This document shows positions 39,739 through 50,423 of a stretch of DNA of 64,000 nucleotides, one piece after another (the first letter of the stretch is position 1; every line of letters begins with the position of its first letter). The stretch comes from Singulisphaera acidiphila DSM 18658 (GTDB lineage: Bacteria; Planctomycetota; Planctomycetia; Isosphaerales; Isosphaeraceae), in NCBI RefSeq assembly GCF_000242455.2, contig NC_019892.1, positions 8,380,744 to 8,444,743 of the forward strand, given 5' to 3'. The notes beneath the pieces are model-generated. The model was not told the DNA's origin and did no database searches. It worked only from the letters and a program-made list of their open reading frames with translations. A program made the translations under genes and the position numbers.

Positions 39739-42700
39739 TTATGATGCGACCTGATTTCGGCCGTTGTGCTTGGCCTGGTAGAGCGCGACATCGGCGGCCT
39801 CGATGAGTTGCTCAGCGGTGGCTCGTGGTGATGGCGTGGCTGCGGCAATCCCGATACTGACGGTCACGATCCCACGGGCGGCCCCCTCATTGGGGATTCT
39901 TAGTGCGGCGACCGCGGCGCAGGCCCGCGCGGCGACCTCGCGCGTTGTGACACTGTCGGCGTCCGGCAGGATGAGAGCGAACTCTTCGCCACCATAGCGG
40001 GCCACCAAGTCCGTGCCATGCCGGACACTTCCCTCCAGCGCCTCGGCGACGCGACGGAGGCAGGCGTCACCAGCGCGGTGGCCGTACCGGTCGTTGTAGA
40101 GCTTGAAATGGTCGATGTCGACCATCGCCGCACCGAGGGAGGTCCCAGGCCGCTCCGCCCGCTGCCACTCGGCCGCGAGCACCTCGTCGAAGCGGCGTCG
40201 ATTGGCCAACCCCGTCAGCGAATCGGTCGTGCTCAGCGCTTCCAGTCGGCGGTTCGCCGCCCCCAAGGCCTCGGTCCGCTCGGCCACCTTGCGCTCGAGC
40301 GAAGCATAGAGCAACGCATTATCCAGCGAAACCGCGAGTTGACCGGCGATCAGCATGACCGCGTCCATCCCTCCAGCCGAGAACGCGCCTCGACTGAGCC
40401 GGTTCTCCAGCAAGAGGATCGCCCGGAGGACCCCCTGGTTGAGGATCGGGACCAGCAACAGCGAACAGCATTCGAGGCCGGTGATATAGGGATCGCGAGC
40501 AAAGCGGTCGTCACGCGTCGCGTCCTCCACAAGAAGTGGCTCCTTCGTTCGCTCGGCATAGCGGAAAGCCGAGAGAGGGAGCAGGCCCCGCATACCGGCC
40601 TCGTCCACCGGAATGGGACTCTCGGCCTCGCCCGCGATGGGCGGCAGGCACCACCCTTGTGATGAAACATCGTCACGCAATATGACCAATACCTTGGTTG
40701 CTCCGGTCATAGCCCCAAGCAGCTCGCCAACTCGGGCCTTGAGCCGATCGAGACCCGTCTCCGAGCTCAATGCCTGCGAAGCTTGGAGAATGGCCAGCAT
40801 GTCGATCGCATCGGAAGAGACGCGACTGCTGCCGCGCGAGTCTCCCTTCTTTCGAGGACTGTCGACCATCCGCAGGAAGGGGTAGGCGTGCTCGAGCGCC
40901 CGCACCTTCGCAGTCGCCCCCCAATCCCGATAGAGCCGCCTCGCCTTGGCCAACAGCTTGCGACCGGTGTGCTCGAGCCCGTGCGCGAGATGGAACAGTG
41001 CGGCTCGCTCGGCGATGAGTGCCCGATGCCAAGGGCGCCGCCGAGTCGAGGCCTCGCGTTGCGCCACATCGAACGCGTAAGAGGCACCCCGAAAGTCGTC
41101 CACGACCCAGGCACGCTCAGCCTCGACCAACCGGAGCAGGTGCAGGAAGTTGCCGGGAGCATCCGAAGCGCGACGAGCTAACCAGTCCCGACACTCATCG
41201 AGCGCAACGAGCTTCGCCGCTCGCTCTTCCGGTTCGGCCGCCCGGGCGCTGTTCGCCAAGGCAAGGGCTTGAAGCCAATACGCCAGCGCGACGGTGTAGG
41301 TGCCTTCGATAGTGCCCAGCAACGGCATCGCCGAGGCGGCATGCTGAGCCAATCCCGGCTCGTCGTTGAACAAGGCAGCCGACACCGCTTGAGTCACATG
41401 AAAATAGCACGTTGCCATCGGGTTGCCGACCAGGCTGGTACGATACTCAGTCTCATTGAAGGAAAGTCCCGAAGCATCGGTCTCACCGCGAAGCGAGCGA
41501 AACAACTGCCGGGAGGAAACGAAACTGGCAACCGCATGGACGTTCCCGATTCGCTCGGCCAGCGCGATCGCGACTTCGGCTTCGGCGACGCAACGATCAA
41601 GTGTTGGCTCGCAATCAAAGAGAGTGCAAATCGAGGGGGCATAGGTGAAGCAAGCGTATTGCAGATCACCGCCGCGCATCAGCTCCTCGCGGGCCCGCTG
41701 CGCGTATTCGAGATTGTTTTCCAGGGGCTCGAACCAGTGCGCGGTGTGATACGCGAACAGGAAGCGAGCCTGGCCTGTTTCCGCCGGGAAGCCCAAAGAC
41801 TCGCCCACCGCCAGGACATTCCGCACGGCCTGGTAGCCGGTGCGATAGTCACCTCGCAGCAGGATAGTGACAAGCCCGGCGTGCCCCAAGGGACAGATGA
41901 GGGGTGCGCAAGGGCCATACTCGCCCCAGAGACGCTGGCCCTCGAGCACCAGCCAAGCCTGAATCATCCGATTGCAGAAGAAGGCTGCCGGCATCATCCG
42001 GTTGATGAGCCTGGCCATCGCGAACACGCGGGGGTCGTACTCCTCAGACCGCGGTTTCTCCTCGTAACCCGCGCCTTCCTCGGCCCATCGCCAAAACGCG
42101 CCCGCTCCCTCAGCGAGATCCGCGTCAAGATTCACCCCCCAGGTGCGCGCCCCGAGTCGACGTAACAGATCGAGGCCAATCTCCAAAGCTTCGCGCGACC
42201 GACCGCGATGGGAGAGGCTGCCAATCTGAACACAGGTAACTTCGACCAGGTCCAGCGGGGCATGGCCCCGACGCTCGATCGTGCGGTATAGGCTGTCAGC
42301 TTCATCGAGACATCCGAGGCTGTACAACGCCGCATGCCGTTCGATCTCGAGGGCCGCGAGTGCGGCCTGATCCGCAAGGGGCCCCAAGGGGCCGAGCATG
42401 GTCATCGCGGCCTCAAGAAAGTGCTCCGAGGTGACATGATTGCTCACGAGGCGTGCGCAAACCGCCGCATCGTGGAACAGGGTGGCAACCCGGCGGCGTT
42501 CGTCCAGATCGTGGATCGCCTCGACGGCCGGCAAGTATTGCTCGGCCGCATCGACGCCGTGGTCGGGGAGCGTCGCCAGCCGCCGCGCCAGGGTGAGATG
42601 CAAGGCGAGCCGCTCCGCCGAGTCGAGCCGCCGATATGCGGCTTGCTGTACTCGGTCATGGCGAAACCGGACCGCACCGGCGCGTTCGAAAGCCAGCCGC

Positions 42701-44922
42701 TGACCGCCGTTGTCCATCACCAGAAGCCCATCCTCGAGCGGCGGCCCGAGCCGAGCTTCCAACTCCGACGCGGTCAGACCACTGGCGGCCGCCAGCAGGT
42801 CGAGCCCTACCTCACCGGCGAGACAGGCCATGGTCTCGAGCAGCACACCCGAATCAAAGGGCAGCCGGTCGATCCGCGCCGTCAACAGATCCACCACCTC
42901 GCTCCGGCCGACGAAACGACGAACCGTCGCTTCGTTCCATCCCCACCCCTCAGGTCCGAGGCTCAGCGCACCGTCTTGCCGTAGCGCGTTGACCAGTTCC
43001 ACGGTGTCGTACGGATTGCCGCCGGTTCGATCGCCAAGCACGGCCGCCAGCCGGCTCGCCTCGGGCGGCCGCAGGCGGAGCATCTCCTCCAGGAGCGTTC
43101 CCAGGTCGGCAGGCGGCAGGTTTTGCAACCGGAGCCGTCGCGGTGCCGGGTCCAACCGCTCCCAACGGGAGAGCATCGGCGCAAGCGGATGTGCCGCATC
43201 GACCTCTCCATCGCGGTAGGCCCCCACGATCAGGATGCCCCGCAGCGTTTCATCCGCCAGCACGGCATCGATAAAGCGAATCGAAAGCGGGCCGGCCCAT
43301 TGCAGGTCGTCGAGAACAAGAATCACCGGGCGAGTCGGAGAAGCGACAGCACGCAGCAATTCCAACACCGCCTGGCGCAATCGTGCCTCGGCCTCAACCG
43401 GATCGCCGGGAGCAATCTCCGGCTCCGCACCCAGCAGAACCGCAAACTCCGGCAACAACCCCGTGATCAGCCCGGCGTTGGGCCCCAGCTCGCGGAGAAT
43501 CCGTGACCGCTGCTCAGCGAGTTCCGCATCCGGTTCAGCCAAGAGCAGGCGACCCAGGGCGTGTAAAGCCTGCATCACCCCAGCCGTGGTCGGATCGCGA
43601 CGATACTGATCGAACTTCCCCGCCGCGAACAGGCCGCGCCGCGCCGTCACCAACGGCCGGAGTTCATCGATCAAAACCGTCTTGCCGACGCCCGGCGCTC
43701 CCGCAATCAGGACGCCGCGCGCCCGGTCGTCGCCGAGGCCTTCGAAGACGCTCCGCAACGCCTCGATCTCAGACTCACGACCCACGAGCCGGGAAGGAGG
43801 CGAGAGCCGAATCGGAAAGTCGCGTTCCCCCAACGGGAAGGTGCCGTCCTCGCCCTGAACCTGGATCTCACACAGCCGAGAGAGATCATCCGCCAAGCCC
43901 GCGGCGCACTGGTAGCGTCGGTCAGGCTCCTTCTCAAGCAGGCGCATGATAATCTCGGACAGCATTCTCGGGACGAGCGGGTTCCGTTCAGCAGGCGGCG
44001 TTGGCACGCGCACCAGGTGGTCGCGGACGAGTTGGAGCGGGTCATTCCCCTCGAAAGGGGGCTGGCCGACGGCCAGTTCGTAAAGCGTCGCGCCCAAGGA
44101 GTAGAGGTCAGCACGCCGGTCCACCGCTCGGCCCGTCCGCCCCGTCTGCTCAGGGGCAAGATAGGCCAGCGTACCTACGATCTCACGATGGTGGACGAAA
44201 GCCGGCCGCTCCCCAACGAACGTGGTGGCGAGATCGAAGTCGATCAGCAAGGGGCGGCGGCCCGGCCCCGAGAGCAGGATATTGGCGGGGTTGATATCCC
44301 TATGCACCACTCTGTGCTGATGCAAGGCCGCGACGATCTGCGCCAGCCCCAACGCAAACTCGAGCAGTTCCGGCATCGCCATCCGGCCAACGCGAATCAC
44401 CTCGGCCAGCGACACGCCGGCCACATCCTCCATCCCGATCGCGTTCGTGAATTCGGCCACGGATACCAGTTGCGGCACGCCCCAAACACCGGCCAATCGC
44501 TCGAGGATCCCCAGTTCGTGCCGCCACCGCGCCTTCGCACTGGGACCAAGCAACTCCTTCACGATGAGGCTCCCCGCCCCATTCCGCAAAGGCAAGCGAA
44601 CCACCCGCGTGTGATCGCTCTCGTGGAGGATCGTGATCAGAGCACAGTCCGCGTCCGTGGCAGGGCTCATGGTTTCGAGGGGCACGGGCACCCCCCAGCC
44701 TTCGTCAGCCGGCATTGGGTTAAGTCGAGTCTCTACCATGAGATCAATCGCATCATCCACGTGGCCCCCACCTGGGTCGGATTGCTCCGGGGAATCGCGA
44801 TCTGATGTGGCCGTATCATCAAGCCGTTTCACTGGGCGAGCCATCCCTACACGCATCCAAGATATACTGCTTGTTAGAGCCGTCGTGACTCTCGTTACCT
44901 CACGGCACACTCGAAAAGCCAT
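39739..44922 (-). CDS. Multidomain Ser/Thr kinase - AAA ATPase - TPR - GAF - GGDEF signalling protein
   Basis: A 1,727-residue cytosolic protein (in-frame ATGs at 44856 and 44844 could be the start). Residues of about 95-350 are a protein kinase: VKELLG with Lys 122, HRDINPANILL (residues 207-217), DFD at 228-230 in place of DFG, then LAPEQTGR. Next is an AAA_16/STAND-type ATPase with the Walker A GAPGVGKT (408-415) and Walker B ILVLDDLQW. A long TPR-like helical region follows to about residue 1340. A GAF domain occupies about 1400-1540. The C-terminus is a diguanylate cyclase, with the GGEEF active site at 1644-1648. The residue four before LVARYGGEEF is His (HGTD), so the canonical RxxD inhibitory site is absent. 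It probably links a phosphorylation input to cyclic-di-GMP. Confidence 0.92.
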   Translation of the reverse strand: MAFRVCREVTRVTTALTSSISWMRVGMARPVKRLDDTATSDRDSPEQSDPGGGHVDDAIDLMVETRLNPMPADEGWGVPVPLETMSPATDADCALITILHESDHTRVVRLPLRNGAGSLIVKELLGPSAKARWRHELGILERLAGVWGVPQLVSVAEFTNAIGMEDVAGVSLAEVIRVGRMAMPELLEFALGLAQIVAALHQHRVVHRDINPANILLSGPGRRPLLIDFDLATTFVGERPAFVHHREIVGTLAYLAPEQTGRTGRAVDRRADLYSLGATLYELAVGQPPFEGNDPLQLVRDHLVRVPTPPAERNPLVPRMLSEIIMRLLEKEPDRRYQCAAGLADDLSRLCEIQVQGEDGTFPLGERDFPIRLSPPSRLVGRESEIEALRSVFEGLGDDRARGVLIAGAPGVGKTVLIDELRPLVTARRGLFAAGKFDQYRRDPTTAGVMQALHALGRLLLAEPDAELAEQRSRILRELGPNAGLITGLLPEFAVLLGAEPEIAPGDPVEAEARLRQAVLELLRAVASPTRPVILVLDDLQWAGPLSIRFIDAVLADETLRGILIVGAYRDGEVDAAHPLAPMLSRWERLDPAPRRLRLQNLPPADLGTLLEEMLRLRPPEASRLAAVLGDRTGGNPYDTVELVNALRQDGALSLGPEGWGWNEATVRRFVGRSEVVDLLTARIDRLPFDSGVLLETMACLAGEVGLDLLAAASGLTASELEARLGPPLEDGLLVMDNGGQRLAFERAGAVRFRHDRVQQAAYRRLDSAERLALHLTLARRLATLPDHGVDAAEQYLPAVEAIHDLDERRRVATLFHDAAVCARLVSNHVTSEHFLEAAMTMLGPLGPLADQAALAALEIERHAALYSLGCLDEADSLYRTIERRGHAPLDLVEVTCVQIGSLSHRGRSREALEIGLDLLRRLGARTWGVNLDADLAEGAGAFWRWAEEGAGYEEKPRSEEYDPRVFAMARLINRMMPAAFFCNRMIQAWLVLEGQRLWGEYGPCAPLICPLGHAGLVTILLRGDYRTGYQAVRNVLAVGESLGFPAETGQARFLFAYHTAHWFEPLENNLEYAQRAREELMRGGDLQYACFTYAPSICTLFDCEPTLDRCVAEAEVAIALAERIGNVHAVASFVSSRQLFRSLRGETDASGLSFNETEYRTSLVGNPMATCYFHVTQAVSAALFNDEPGLAQHAASAMPLLGTIEGTYTVALAYWLQALALANSARAAEPEERAAKLVALDECRDWLARRASDAPGNFLHLLRLVEAERAWVVDDFRGASYAFDVAQREASTRRRPWHRALIAERAALFHLAHGLEHTGRKLLAKARRLYRDWGATAKVRALEHAYPFLRMVDSPRKKGDSRGSSRVSSDAIDMLAILQASQALSSETGLDRLKARVGELLGAMTGATKVLVILRDDVSSQGWCLPPIAGEAESPIPVDEAGMRGLLPLSAFRYAERTKEPLLVEDATRDDRFARDPYITGLECCSLLLVPILNQGVLRAILLLENRLSRGAFSAGGMDAVMLIAGQLAVSLDNALLYASLERKVAERTEALGAANRRLEALSTTDSLTGLANRRRFDEVLAAEWQRAERPGTSLGAAMVDIDHFKLYNDRYGHRAGDACLRRVAEALEGSVRHGTDLVARYGGEEFALILPDADSVTTREVAARACAAVAALRIPNEGAARGIVTVSIGIAAATPSPRATAEQLIEAADVALYQAKHNGRNQVAS

Positions 44923-45128
44923 TCGATGCCGCCTCCGCCATCAAATAGCATAGGTTCCATTCACGTGCAAAATTATCAGGAAATCGCCCCCGTTTTTTCT
45001 TCTTCGATCCTGACTTTATGCGACTCCGCCAACCCGGACTCGAAGACGAGGACCGCGCATTGAACAGGACCGAGCGAGTCGGCAGACTCAACTTCGGTCG
45101 CTGGTCATCTCGACGGTGGGAGACACAC

Positions 45129-45290
45129 GTGAAGGTTCAGAGCCGATTTACGTTGAGTGGGTTGATGGTAGCAACCACTGGCATCGCCCTCTGCTTCGCC
45201 GCCCTCGAGGTGATTACCGGCGGCGTCCTCTCGACGGCCATCCTAAATCATCGCTCTCGGCCCATGCTCCACTCACTGGCAAACCCGTGA
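45129..45290 (+). CDS. Small single-span membrane protein (53 aa)
   Basis: From the GTG at 45129 the product begins MKVQSRFTLSGLMVATTGIA and continues with a hydrophobic span to ...EVITGGVLSTAIL, then a short basic tail. The RFTL.GLMVA start is a pattern often seen in small membrane proteins of planctomycetes, where RFTLR.LL-type starts lead a transmembrane segment. A longer frame from 45018 adds residues of unlikely composition. The product may be a truncated relic of a longer protein. No recognised function. Confidence 0.4.
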   Translation: MKVQSRFTLSGLMVATTGIALCFAALEVITGGVLSTAILNHRSRPMLHSLANP

Positions 45291-45640
45291 ACTCGCCGCA
45301 CCATTCTGGGCGCCCCACACCCAGGAACAGCAAGACTCCATCATCAAAAAAAACACAATACGAATCATCACAATATTTTTATTTATCACACATACACGAT
45401 GCTATACCCAAGGCACGTTCTATCAATTCCGGCATCGCTCTGGGCCAGGGTGGGGATTCGAGGCTGTTGATTGAGCGGCATCCCCTCGCCTGGCCGCTCC
45501 AATGCCATGCTTGCGGCCATCAAGCTCTAGCTGTTACACGCCCAAGAAAAGTGCCAGCGGCTTTCGACTTTGCCTGAAGGCACGGACCGGGCATTCGCCG
45601 AGGATCTCGTGGCCGAACTGTACAGGAGGCAGGTCGCCAC
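45291..45640. other. Intergenic region, AT-rich
   Basis: About 350 bases. The stretch at 45340-45420 is clearly AT-rich. The right end contains a frame ending LVAELYRRQVAT whose TGA overlaps the ATG at 45641. That frame has no start codon I can support and may be a remnant. Confidence 0.4.
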
Positions 45641-45787
45641 ATGACCACCCGCAACCCCAAAAGACGCCGCAATCCGACTCCAAAGCTCTGCGAACTCTTC
45701 GACCAATGCGGGTGTCGGATCAACTGCGCTAGCGGTCGCGGGACCTCGATATTGACATCAGCAACCACTATTCAAATTTATGATTAA
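45641..45787 (+). CDS. Possible small Cys-containing protein (48 aa)
   Basis: An ATG at 45641 is preceded by AGGAGG at 11 bases and overlaps, as ATGA, the stop of an upstream frame. The product MTTRNPKRRRNPTPKLCELF... is basic at its start and has four Cys residues in 13 positions (CELFDQCGCRINC). It ends 14 bases before the RNA-ligase-like gene, so it could be its leader partner. It matches nothing I know and may be spurious. Confidence 0.3.
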   Translation: MTTRNPKRRRNPTPKLCELFDQCGCRINCASGRGTSILTSATTIQIYD

Positions 45788-45801
45788 TAAGGAGAACGAC
45801 A

Positions 45802-46356
45802 ATGCAAAAAATCCCCACCATGTTCGAGCGAGATTGGAACGGCGACCGGAGCCGGGTGCTCAACCAGGTCCATCCCGGTTGCGAGTGGGTGGTTGCTGGC
45901 GAAGGCATCGCCACCCAGAAGATCGATGGCACGTGTTGCCTGATCCGCGATGGAGCTCTCTTCAAGCGGCAGGAGATCAAGCAGGGTCAGGCGATCCCTA
46001 CAGACTTCGAGGAATCGGGATTCGACGACGAAACCGGTAAGCGGGTGGGTTGGCGTCCGATTGGCGATGGTCCGGAGGACAAATGGCACCGCGAGGGTTT
46101 CGCCAACCTAGCCGACAAGGCCGATGGAACCTACGAGTTGGTCGGTCCCCACACCCAGAAGAACCCGGAGAAATACGAGCAAGACATCCTCGTACCGCAC
46201 ACAGTGGAAACGCTTGGCTTTTCCGACAATCCGCCGCGCAACTTCGATGGGCTGAAGGCCTATCTGGCCGAAAAGGACATCGAGGGGATTGTCTTCCATC
46301 ACCCAGACGGACGCCGCGCGAAGATCAAGAAGCGAGATTTCGGCTTGAAGCGATAG
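45802..46356 (+). CDS. RNA ligase-like nucleotidyltransferase (DUF5565-type)
   Basis: A 184-residue protein of the covalent nucleotidyltransferase superfamily (ATP-dependent RNA/DNA ligases and capping enzymes). The AMP-accepting Lys is in QKIDGTCCLIRDGALFKRQE (motif I KxDG, Lys 40). ADGTYELVGPH resembles motif III, EGIVFHHPDGRRAKI is motif IV, and the terminal KIKKRDFGL is motif V. AAGGAGAACGAC precedes the ATG. At this length it holds only the adenylation domain, without the OB-fold or helical domain of larger ligases. It would seal RNA ends or act in RNA repair, but no RtcB, end-healing kinase/phosphatase or nuclease gene is nearby. The gene lies in a less GC-rich stretch. Confidence 0.8.
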   Translation: MQKIPTMFERDWNGDRSRVLNQVHPGCEWVVAGEGIATQKIDGTCCLIRDGALFKRQEIKQGQAIPTDFEESGFDDETGKRVGWRPIGDGPEDKWHREGFANLADKADGTYELVGPHTQKNPEKYEQDILVPHTVETLGFSDNPPRNFDGLKAYLAEKDIEGIVFHHPDGRRAKIKKRDFGLKR

Positions 46357-47512
46357 CCAGCCGTCGGGATATGACACGGGCGGCCAGTCGAAGCTCGCCC
46401 GTTTGCTCGAGCGGGATTCCTCGATGATTCGTAGGAAGCTCGCAGGCAATCAGTCTGACGAACTGGCGACCCAACACGTCATGAAGCCGAGAGTTAATAA
46501 GCCACGAATAATCAACTACGCCCAAAGGGCGTGGTATTAGGAAGCCCCCCCGAGGGATCGTCTACGTGAGGTAGCCCCCGTTGGGGGCGTGGATGTTAGA
46601 AACGCAATACACAGCTCTCTGTCCCTCTCCTCCCGTCAACCGCAGTCCCGCGCTCGAAGCCTTTTCCGACCGATCCCGTGGGTGACTATTGAGGGTCAGG
46701 AAAGTAATGCACGCTGAGAGCTCGAAATGTTCGGAGAAAACAGGACCGGGGCGTGCATTACTTTCGTAAGCATCCGGCCAACCGCACTCTAGACGCATCG
46801 TGCGGCCAGAGGGGAGAACGTCTCGATCACTTTCTCCCTCTCGTGGAACCGATCAGGGGGACTTTGCCGGACCGACGTATCGCTGCGGCGATAGACGACA
46901 AGGGACTTGCCAACACACATATATCACTTAATACGGTCAATCTACAACGACGTCCGGGCTCCGTCGCATCGCATGTTTCGCTTCGACTTATCAATCACAT
47001 GACTTCCGGGTCCGCTGAACTGCAGCGTAGGTCGCCATGCCTCGGGCGCCAGGAGGACGTAAAAGCAATATTCGGACACTCCCACCGAATGTCTTTGGGA
47101 CGCGTCGGTGGCCCGAGGGTCGTGCTGACGGCTATCCGGGAGAGTAACGATCGTGGCCATCCCTGCAGTCGAGAACGATCGGGAGTGCCGTTGCGTCCAT
47201 CCCTTCGGGTCCACCAAGCTCTCGTGGACTACGACCCGCTGAGCTTTCTGAAGTGCGAGTGCCTGCGTATCGGCAAAGGCGGTACTCGGAGGCCGAGCGG
47301 TCCAACAGTTGAAGTAGAATGCGATTCGCTCGCCGGTTAGCCTCGCTGTGTAACCGGGCCTACGGGGAGGCGCTTCGAGCGAGTGATCGACGGTGATCGG
47401 CTTCCCGAGAAGGATGTGAACCAGGCGCTAGACTTCTCAACCGCCCCGCGCTGCACTTCCCCCCGTCGTTTACAACTGGAAGTCGTGCCAATCCCCTCGG
47501 AGCTCGCCATAG
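46357..47512. other. Long non-coding or relic region
   Basis: About 1.15 kb without a gene I can support. Open frames on both strands lack ribosome-binding sites and look like chance or decayed sequence. It contains small hairpins (ACGCCC/GGGCGT at 46517-46531; GCCCCC/GGGGGC at 46574-46588) of the REP type and a longer inverted repeat at 46700-46765. It is less GC-rich than most of the window. Confidence 0.5.
46700..46765. repeat. 15-bp perfect inverted repeat
   Basis: GAAAGTAATGCACGC (46700-46714) and GCGTGCATTACTTTC (46751-46765) are exact complements separated by 36 bases. There is no following T-run and no gene between them. It could be the ends of a miniature element or a binding site for a dimeric protein. 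Confidence 0.65.
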
Positions 47513-50050
47513 ATGTCGAAGTTCCTTATTCGGATCGCGCTCTTTCACTCGCTCTGGATTGTCCCGCCCAGCTCGCATGGGCAGCAAGTGCCCTCGACTG
47601 GTCCTTTCGTGGCGCCGCAGGCCAAACTGCAGTATGCGCCAGACCGGGACTATGACCTGCAGCATATCGCTGCTGACTTGACCATTGACTATGCGGAACA
47701 CTCCTTTCAAGGGAGTGTGGTCAACACCTTGGCTCCGCTCCGCGAGGGGGTGACGACCATTCAGTTCGACTGCGGCGAAAATCTGACCGTTACTGGCTGC
47801 GAAGTCGCAGGAAAGAAAGCCGTTTTCAGCCGGGAGGGGGACAAACTCAAGATCATCGCTCCTCAGCCGCTGCCGCCAGGTAAACCCGTTGCCTTGACCA
47901 TCCGCTACTTCGATAGCGGCAAGAAGGAACTGCCCAATTTCCGTTGGCTCAAGCCGACCGTCGCAGACCCACAGCGCATCGGGTTTTGGACCAACGGCGA
48001 ACCGTACTTCAACCGGCAGTGGCTGCCCACCTGGGACTACCCCAACGATTTCGCCACAACGGAGGTGCGAGTCACGGTACCAGCCGACTGGTACGTGATC
48101 AGCAATGGTATCCTCGATTCCGACACCCTCCGCGCGGACGGCAAGAAGCGCACCTTCCACTGGAAGATGGATCAGCCTTATGCCACCTATCTGATCTCGC
48201 TGGTCGGTGGACCGTTCGATATCAAGCCGGCCGATTGGCAGGGCATCAAATTGATGTATCTGGTTCCGAAAGGCAAAGGCGATCGGATCGACGATACTTT
48301 CGGCGACACGCCGGATATTCTCTCCTTCTTCTCCGACCGTCTCGGCGTCAAGTATCCTTGGCCAAAGTACGCACAGACTGCCGTCTACGATTTTCCCGGC
48401 GGCATGGAGAACGCGAGCGCGACAACTATCGGAGTACGAGACCTGGCCGACAGACGCAACGGCTATAAGACGAGTGTGCGCGGGGTCGCCCATGAACTGG
48501 CGCATCAATGGTTTGGCGACCTAGTCACCTGCGGACATTGGGGCGAGCTTTGGCTCAACGAGGGCTTTGCAGACCTCTTATGCGATGTTTACCTGGAACA
48601 TACACAGGGTACGAGCACCTATGACTACGCAGTTCATGGCTGGACACAGGCGTATATCTCCGAGAGCCGGCGATACAAACGCCCTCTGGCCACAAACCTC
48701 TATGCGGACTCATCCTCGATGCTCGACTCCCATTCTTATAAGAAGGGAGCCGCGATTCTTCATACTCTTCGCCGCGAACTGGGAGACAAGGCGTTCTTTG
48801 CGGGCCTTCACCATTACCTGACTCAACATCGCCACCAGCCCGTGAACAGTCACGTCCTTTGTCGCGCCATGACCGAAGCGACGGGCATCAACCTTGAAGC
48901 CTTCTTCGATCAGTGGGTCTATAAGCCTGGTCATCCCATCCTGGACTACACCTGGAGGTGGGACGAGGAGAACAAGCAGGTCGTCCTGATGGTCAAGCAA
49001 ACCCAGGACACAAAAGACGGGACACCCATCTATTCCATCAATGCGACGGTCGGCATGATCGGCCGGGGCGTCATGACACGGGCCAAGGTCAAACTCAATC
49101 AGTCGGAACAGGAAATTCACCTGGACGTGGCAAGAAAGCCGAATGCGGTGCTTTTGGATCCCGACCACGATTTTCTGCGCGAGATACCCGCGCTACACTG
49201 GGCGGCAGAGGAGTTGCCATCGATCCTCAATTATGCCTCGAACGCGGTAGATCGAGCGGAGGCCATGAACCGGATACTGGCAGAATCGCCTTCCGACGCG
49301 ATGGTGCAAGCGATAGTCGAAGCAGTACGCGCGGATCAGGGGCAGTTCGTCGTTTTCCGGGACATCAATCGTCTGGGGAAACTGAAACGGGAAGACCTGC
49401 GCCCGCTGTTTCTTGAGCAACTGGCTCACCCCAACATTGACCGGCGCACACAGGCCGTTCTTGCCTTGGGACAGTTGCCGAAACCTCAAGATGAGACGAC
49501 GACGAAGACTCTTCGCGGTCTGGTCAATGACAAAGAACTATACACGGTCGTCAGAGCGGCGATCTCGACACTCGGCAATTGGGATGCGTCCACGAATCGT
49601 GATGTTTTTCAGAATGCGACAAAACAGACGTCGCCATTGGACAGCATACGGCTGGTGGCTCTCGACGGGCTGACAAAGGCGGACGCGATGGAAGGGAAGG
49701 CTATATCCAACCCGTGTCCAGAGACGACTCGGACGGCGATGAAATTCCTCTCGGATCGTGCGAACGGCGTAAAGGACTCGCCCGTCATGGCGGCTCGACA
49801 GCGCGTCCTCTCTGCAACGGATCAAAAAGGCAACGCGACGATCGCAAGCATGCTGAAAGACCTTCACACCTTTGTCCCGCTCGCTTGTGACGAGGTAGAA
49901 ACATGCGGGATAGAAGAGAGTGGAGAACGGATTAGTCGAGTCGCATACTACAAAGTGGTCACTGGGCAGGAGGTATGGTATTTAAGGTTTTCCCTAACGG
50001 CGGAGGGAAAAGTCGCGTCCCTCCGTCCCCAAGACTCTAGTTTTCGATAA
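47513..50050 (+). CDS. M1-family zinc aminopeptidase with C-terminal HEAT-like repeats
   Basis: An 845-residue exported metallopeptidase. CGGAGCTCGCC precedes the ATG, and a signal peptide (MSKFLIRIALFHSLWIVPPS, ending SHGQ) follows. The M1 core has the N-terminal beta-saddle, the exopeptidase motif DFPGGMENASATTIG and the zinc motif HELAHQWFG (His 327 and 331) with Glu 350 in WLNEGFADL, giving HExxHx18E. Further conserved blocks are YKKGAAILHTLRRELGD and FFDQWVYKPGHPILDY. The last about 250 residues look like HEAT-type helical repeats (NIDRRTQAVLALGQLPK) rather than the usual ERAP1-C domain. It removes N-terminal residues from peptides in the periplasm. Codon choice is visibly less GC-rich than in the next gene. 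Confidence 0.93.
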   Translation: MSKFLIRIALFHSLWIVPPSSHGQQVPSTGPFVAPQAKLQYAPDRDYDLQHIAADLTIDYAEHSFQGSVVNTLAPLREGVTTIQFDCGENLTVTGCEVAGKKAVFSREGDKLKIIAPQPLPPGKPVALTIRYFDSGKKELPNFRWLKPTVADPQRIGFWTNGEPYFNRQWLPTWDYPNDFATTEVRVTVPADWYVISNGILDSDTLRADGKKRTFHWKMDQPYATYLISLVGGPFDIKPADWQGIKLMYLVPKGKGDRIDDTFGDTPDILSFFSDRLGVKYPWPKYAQTAVYDFPGGMENASATTIGVRDLADRRNGYKTSVRGVAHELAHQWFGDLVTCGHWGELWLNEGFADLLCDVYLEHTQGTSTYDYAVHGWTQAYISESRRYKRPLATNLYADSSSMLDSHSYKKGAAILHTLRRELGDKAFFAGLHHYLTQHRHQPVNSHVLCRAMTEATGINLEAFFDQWVYKPGHPILDYTWRWDEENKQVVLMVKQTQDTKDGTPIYSINATVGMIGRGVMTRAKVKLNQSEQEIHLDVARKPNAVLLDPDHDFLREIPALHWAAEELPSILNYASNAVDRAEAMNRILAESPSDAMVQAIVEAVRADQGQFVVFRDINRLGKLKREDLRPLFLEQLAHPNIDRRTQAVLALGQLPKPQDETTTKTLRGLVNDKELYTVVRAAISTLGNWDASTNRDVFQNATKQTSPLDSIRLVALDGLTKADAMEGKAISNPCPETTRTAMKFLSDRANGVKDSPVMAARQRVLSATDQKGNATIASMLKDLHTFVPLACDEVETCGIEESGERISRVAYYKVVTGQEVWYLRFSLTAEGKVASLRPQDSSFR

Positions 50051-50423
50051 TTCAGGCGACTAAACGTCTTCGGCCGCTGCCGCCCGGCGACGCGGCCTTA
50101 CCTGGCCATGAATCCCTACCACATTGGTGTCCTTCCGGCAGTCGTGTAAAAAGTGATCCTTTGGCGGCGGGCTAGTAGCCGCGTATCGAACCACGCCAGC
50201 GCAACCTCCTAATATGGGCGGCCGACGCCGTAATCCGGCTGCATGGCTCCCGAGCCGAGCTGACCGAGGCGGGGCGGGCATCCCGGTACCGGAAGGCTCT
50301 TGCCCCCGGCAAGCTTTGCGATGTAAAGTAAGTCCGGATTGGCTCCGGGCCCGATCGAGATCACGGCCCGACATCCGAAGCGGTTCGTAGACCCTTGCTC
50401 CGTGGATGCGGGAGGCCAACCCG
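50051..50423. other. Intergenic region
   Basis: About 370 bases between the aminopeptidase and permease genes, with no gene, RNA or terminator I can support. Base composition changes sharply across it, from moderate to very high GC. Confidence 0.4.

Follow-up and report, generated by a model that had tools for sequence, protein, structure and literature searches.

A minimal RLIG1-family RNA ligase gene in the chromosome of Singulisphaera acidiphila DSM 18658, most likely gained from a phage

Introduction

The RLIG1 family of RNA ligases (Pfam PF17720, DUF5565), which includes human RLIG1 (C12orf29), and its bacterial members have already been described. For the RLIG1 of Yasminevirus (PDB 9c6l/9c6m), the available text of PMC11494293 reports active-site mutants with lowered adenylation, several of them also with lowered ligation. 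According to the same text, several of the homologues tested, from bacteria and from viruses, are active ligases which join tRNA halves, so that this kind of enzyme is already known, and the viral enzymes were proposed to counter host immunity. The accessible part of PMC10364804 places tRNA genes and genes for RNA-related domains near bacterial DUF5565 genes. As far as their available text goes, the published homologue sets (n=390 and n=395; PMC10364804, PMC11494293) may include the gene described below; among the matches listed in a literature search for RLIG1, C12orf29, DUF5565 and planctomycete RNA ligase, no title dealt with this gene.

Proteins of similarly minimal size are annotated as RNA ligases in Cellulophaga phage phi10:1 (YP_008241976.1) and Mycobacterium phage Collard (gp74), and are 42% and 49% identical, respectively, to the protein studied here over nearly its full length. 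Both phage genes sit in dense phage operons, whereas the present copy is chromosomal and lies between ordinary genes. From what is accessible of PMC11494293, our guess is that the "C. phage" protein used there is the phi10:1 ligase.

The DNA analysed, referred to as the window, is a 64-kb stretch of the genome of Singulisphaera acidiphila DSM 18658 (assembly of 9.76 Mb in four contigs). In a first-pass annotation made from the sequence alone, an orphan, minimal RNA-ligase-like protein of 184 aa was described in it, possibly phage-derived and possibly accompanied by a 48-aa Cys-rich partner. The relationship of this protein to the known RNA ligases, its distribution and its surroundings are reported here.

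Family assignment and catalytic residues

The 184-aa frame is present at 45802-46356 on the plus strand and is more than a chance reading frame. It matched the Pfam family PF17720 (RLIG1, DUF5565) at 7.1e-8 and 32.1 bits, above the curated cut-off of 25, and the PHROGs family phrog_14301, "RNA ligase", at 5.2e-59 across residues 1-184; NCBIfam gave no match at E up to 1. Among the sequences of solved structures the chains of Yasminevirus RLIG1 (9c6l) alone stood out, at 2e-13 with the single sequence and at 5.9e-24 with a 13-row profile, the following matches lying above E 0.05. The gene encodes a stand-alone nucleotidyltransferase of the RLIG1 family, to which it adds a member. The term "orphan" holds for the gene context, but not for the protein, which belongs to RLIG1.

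Motif I reads K40-I-D-G, in agreement with the KxDG pattern. Besides motifs I, IV and V, which the first-pass annotation had correctly recognised, the residues of motifs Ia, III and IIIa could be placed, and the active-site set comprises K40 (motif I), D42, R56 (Ia), E112 (III), H133 (IIIa), E161 (IV) and K174 (V). These residues align with K73, D75, R89, E174, H195, E240 and K253 of the Yasminevirus enzyme, a pairing counted by hand after the chain numbering had been shifted by one residue. Relatives were taken from genome contigs (80 of 167 confirmed) and from viral contigs (80 of 338); a filter on length and start left 139, of which 70 were aligned together with the window copy. All 71 members of this alignment (A2) match Pfam RLIG1; K40, R56, E112, H133, E161 and K174 are invariant in it, and D42 is conserved at 90% or more.

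Predicted fold

The AlphaFold2 model of the ligase, built with 71 sequences, had a mean pLDDT of 95.9 and a pTM of 0.85. The structure prediction and profile search that the first-pass annotation had recommended both led to RLIG1: the model, which matched 9c6l in Foldseek at 3.0e-12, superimposed on it with Z 18.9 and an rmsd of 2.0 Å over 178 aligned residues, followed by the Rnl families with Z of 9.0 for Naegleria Rnl, 8.5 for T4 Rnl1 and 7.6 for T4 Rnl2. With the Yasminevirus enzyme it shares the nucleotidyltransferase core, the catalytic residues and the lack of a separate RNA-binding domain, at about 20-27% identity in structural alignments. The deposited Yasminevirus chain has 277 aa against 184 aa here, the loops between motifs Ia and III and between IIIa and IV being shorter in the S. 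acidiphila protein. Human RLIG1 belongs to the same Pfam family, and the fold comparison refers to the Yasminevirus chain.

The Rnl enzymes have the nucleotidyltransferase fold in common with the model at 14-19% identity in structural alignments. T4 Rnl2 has an extra domain. According to the descriptions available, T4 Rnl1 carries an additional domain for RNA binding, and in Naegleria Rnl an OB domain is found at the N-terminus, neither of which occurs in the window ligase; the whole 184-aa model aligns inside residues 73-250 of Rnl1, which sets it apart from the T4 Rnl1 family with its RNA-binding domain. The Pfam scan and the predicted structure thus agree on a minimal fold over the 184 aa, and the earlier statement that the protein has no extra domain is borne out. 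The best match of the model in BFVD was S0A2F6 (TM 0.90 on the target), a protein of phi10:1 which, at 166 aa, equals the phi10:1 ligase gene product in length.

Phage relatives and distribution

The relatives of the ligase in phages and viral contigs showed 33-66% identity. They were placed in an unrooted, "quick" tree of 158 rows, in which 30 of the 155 inner branches were starred and from which 25 of the 183 ligase-bearing records had been kept out as duplicates, repeated loci or short sequences. The copies of three genomes of the host family, namely the window and the genomes G029 and G033, formed a clade with 99% support, the nearest row outside it being an Acidobacteria contig (91%) and not a viral one. 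This clade was nested in a set of 23 rows, 16 viral and seven cellular (SH-aLRT 88%, the set being drawn open). Over the whole tree the label changed between viral and cellular 25 times, compared with about 52 changes after shuffling. The interleaving of viral and cellular rows supports repeated exchange with phages. Since the tree is unrooted, it does not prove transfer from phage to host; a phage is the most likely source of the gene, the direction being the part that we infer. The matches in Pfam, PHROGs and PDB, the fold and the tree all support the first-pass description of a minimal RNA-ligase-like protein, possibly phage-derived. A relative with 54% identity was also seen on a contig titled Thermoplasmata archaeon (L036); this copy may be genuine, whether archaeal or viral, or may result from an error in binning.

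Within the host family the ligase was found in three of 45 genomes (its own, G029 with 83% and G033 with 79% identity), while RtcB was found in 44 of the 45; the ligase gene is accessory and RtcB is core. A class-wide search gave seven ligase-bearing genomes out of 297, the S. acidiphila genome counted; nine genomes had matched, and G156 and G269 were left out as short partial matches, the frame in G269 not reading as a ligase. The frame is full-length in all three family genomes, and pairwise comparison of the three copies gave dN of 0.105-0.125, dS of 0.53-1.21 and dN/dS of about 0.09-0.22, which indicates purifying selection and, as far as the sequence tells, a working gene.

Genomic setting

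The Pfam-scanned neighbours of the ligase are a protein of 1727 aa with protein kinase, AAA, GAF and GGDEF domains, an M1 peptidase, an isopropylmalate-dehydrogenase-type enzyme and an ABC-2 transporter protein. The 1727-aa protein (39739-44922; its AAA domain of the AAA-16 type) has orthologs in G038 (80% identity), the one genome of the same genus that was compared, and in G029 (58%). G038 has this kinase neighbour and lacks both the ligase and the M1 peptidase. The DNA similarity between the window and G038 ends at 44998 and resumes at 50159, elsewhere in G038, and for the segment 44999-50158, with the ligase and the M1 peptidase, no DNA counterpart was found there except for the 182-bp repeat described below; this comparison, which past the gap scored 40 of 277 first-look candidates, may miss small matches. 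The GC content of 45001-47000 is 0.565-0.569. The locus had been described as a less GC-rich stretch, and the low value is real; it is not unique, since of the 64 bins of one kb into which the window was divided seven, both ligase bins counted, are at or below 0.569.

The neighbours scanned are ordinary, and PADLOC at E up to 0.1 was blank for the ligase, the 48-aa frame and the M1 peptidase, in line with the earlier remark that no RNA-repair or defence gene adjoins the ligase; a defence system at the locus was rejected on the PADLOC result. No end-healing enzyme was recognised among the Pfam-scanned neighbours. For a repair operon of the Pnkp1-Rnl-Hen1 type, in which a kinase/phosphatase and a methyltransferase are encoded with the ligase, the comparison covered these neighbours. 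Rfam gave no match at E up to 1 within 44900-47600, and a structured RNA beside the ligase was likewise rejected.

In a survey of 168 loci (85 cellular and 83 viral, near-copies included), with genes called by a crude longest-frame script, the commonest neighbour family occurred at eight loci and was lineage-bound. Such lineage-bound neighbours were an exonuclease in Flavobacterium and a viral family read as DNA methyltransferase-like. Neither the 16 window frames within 8 kb of the ligase nor the frames around the G029 and G033 copies had a family in common with another locus. As raw counts, with no enrichment claimed, tRNA genes lay within 8 kb of the ligase at 22 of 85 cellular and six of 73 viral loci. 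In four Flavobacterium loci (L099, L090, L097 and L084) the ligase is found near a Band-7 protein, an RNase T-like exonuclease and a calcineurin-like phosphoesterase, together with two families without a Pfam match; this neighbourhood is possibly an RNA-repair cluster.

Downstream of the ligase, two repeats were observed. A non-coding element of about 182 bp with sharp ends (46506-46687) begins 150 bp 3' of the gene and, read by eye, contains three apparent GC-rich hairpins; it has no match in Rfam. It is present six times in the S. acidiphila genome and once in G038, and these further copies share 84-87% identity with that of the window. The initial ~90 bp of the element also match in four more family genomes (six of 45 altogether); in G017 several of the copies lie close to the ends of contigs. 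The element looks like a MITE or the end of an insertion sequence. It is adjoined by a 24-nt inverted repeat (46691-46774), 83% complementary, one arm of which has a 29-bp relative elsewhere in the genome.

Proposed function and alternatives

The reading that we favour, with a probability of about 0.85, is that the gene encodes an ATP-dependent RLIG1 ligase acting on 5'-phosphate and 3'-OH ends, that it mends cut RNA, that it was gained from a phage and that the 48-aa frame does not belong with it. By homology, Lys-40 would be adenylated by ATP with a divalent metal; the AMP would then be handed to the 5'-phosphate of the broken RNA, and attack by the 3'-OH would seal the break, all steps taking place in one nucleotidyltransferase domain. 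Activity, substrate and role are putative. The likeliest job would be the repair of enzymatically cleaved RNA, and tRNA broken within its anticodon loop is the leading candidate, because several homologues join tRNA halves (PMC11494293, available text) and tRNA genes lie near DUF5565 genes (PMC10364804, available text). The window itself contains no pointer to tRNA repair, there being no tRNA gene in its 64 kb and no RNA-repair gene among the scanned neighbours. The ligase would act beside the core RtcB, which joins other kinds of ends, as a phage-derived gene retained under purifying selection in few planctomycetes. It is tempting to go one step further and to regard it as a domesticated phage anti-ribotoxin ligase, a stand-alone shield of the host against tRNA-cutting toxins or defence nucleases which would repair tRNA by borrowing end-healing enzymes encoded elsewhere and by joining ends that RtcB cannot; this more specific proposal is speculative and must be called doubtful.

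Alternatively, the protein could serve the cell in the general repair of damaged RNA and could have resided in the host lineage for a long time, viruses having picked up their copies from hosts. The Flavobacterium neighbourhood fits such a role, as do the tRNA genes and RNA-related domains reported around DUF5565 genes and the observation, in the available text of PMC9931718, that human RLIG1 keeps RNA intact under oxidative stress. We nevertheless consider it unlikely, given the presence of the ligase in just three of 45 family genomes, which share no neighbour family within 8 kb, the failure to find either the gene or its surrounding segment in G038, and the 25 label changes by which viral and cellular rows are interleaved.

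It is still less probable that the gene is a phage counter-defence gene left over from a decayed prophage and without a present function in the host. Phage relatives of the ligase are known, a cellular row of the 23-row set (L029) lies on a contig that also has a DnaB helicase and a phage integrase, no functional partner was recognised adjoining the ligase, and a dispersed repeat is found in its 3' flank. A remnant of this kind is, however, difficult to reconcile with dN/dS of 0.09-0.22 and full-length frames in three genomes, and no phage family was detected by Pfam in the five larger window neighbours (four of them with matches) or in ten frames around the G029 and G033 copies (five with matches).

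The 48-aa frame upstream

The favoured reading leaves out the 48-aa frame with four Cys (45641-45787, plus strand). All of its reported features were found in the sequence: its stop, TAA at 45785-45787, lies 14 bases 5' of the ligase ATG, and it is linked by an ATGA at 45641-45644 to another very short open frame (45531-45644, plus strand). The latter has no ATG, its possible starts being TTG at 45570 or GTG at 45609, which would give 24 or 11 codons, and it contains two short, weak DNA matches to other sites of the genome (49 and 32 nt). The AGGAGG noted earlier is present and stands 5' of the 48-aa frame; the ligase has a separate AAGGAG, its likely ribosome-binding site being AAGGAGAA (45789-45796, plus strand).

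The frame gave no match in Pfam, NCBIfam or PHROGs at E up to 1. In a tblastn search of the collected loci, 183 of them ligase-bearing, the best non-self match had E 0.26, the only ones below 0.2 being the window itself and its own-genome copy. A hit to the frame in a search of its own genome (48% over 31 aa, E 0.014, with one stop) was read as chance because it lies opposite a longer frame. Among the 45 family genomes the sole non-self match was in G039 (35% over 31 aa, E 0.005), a genome without the ligase, so the co-occurrence in homologues that the first-pass annotation had proposed to look for was not found. By blastn (E up to 1e-3) the similarity between the window and G029 begins at 45790, and that with G033 at the ligase ATG; the ligase DNA is 78-79% identical, and nothing upstream of it is common to the three genomes. 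The GC content by codon position is 0.42/0.58/0.58 in the 48-aa frame as against 0.64/0.40/0.73 in the ligase.

Of 3000 Markov sequences, 16% contained a frame at least 40 aa long that ended within 30 nt; such a frame occurred with four Cys in 2.1%, with a ribosome-binding-site-like word in 0.6% and with both in none, the features having been picked after the frame had been seen. At real ligase loci, 51 of 154 have some frame of 25-90 aa ending within 40 nt of the ligase start, and at eight of the 154, among them the window and G029, there is one that has at least four Cys. The frame in G029, of 41 aa and with four Cys, ends close to the ligase start and gave no match to the window frame. Just 5' of the ligase in two viral contigs (L132 and L179) there are small Cys-rich frames with CxxC-like pairs, zinc-ribbon-like by eye, which do not match the 48-aa frame either.

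A Cys-rich partner was rejected on the grounds that the ligase loci searched showed no related upstream frame, that the similarity ends at the ligase start and that the composition is not gene-like. The 48-aa frame looks like chance sequence and is most likely no conserved gene, with a small probability that it is a lineage-specific leader. That it forms with the ligase a translationally coupled operon, in which a Cys-rich peptide would act as a sensor of oxidation or metals or as a regulator of the ligase, is very improbable: the AGGAGG, the ATGA overlap, the 14-base gap, the joint rarity in Markov sequences and the 4-Cys frame of G029 speak for it, yet the features were selected post hoc, frames near the ligase are common, the one in G029 gave no match, and the DNA around the copies with 83% and 79% identity is similar to the window only from the ribosome-binding site or the ATG onward.

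Significance

A bacterial gene without a name is now placed in the enzyme family of human RLIG1. Its 184-aa version, with the known catalytic residues, is a handy minimal model for what the family repairs. The patchy, phage-interleaved distribution of the ligase beside the near-universal RtcB fits the proposal, in the available text of PMC11494293, that the viral enzymes counter host immunity, and makes the copies retained by hosts open to testing.
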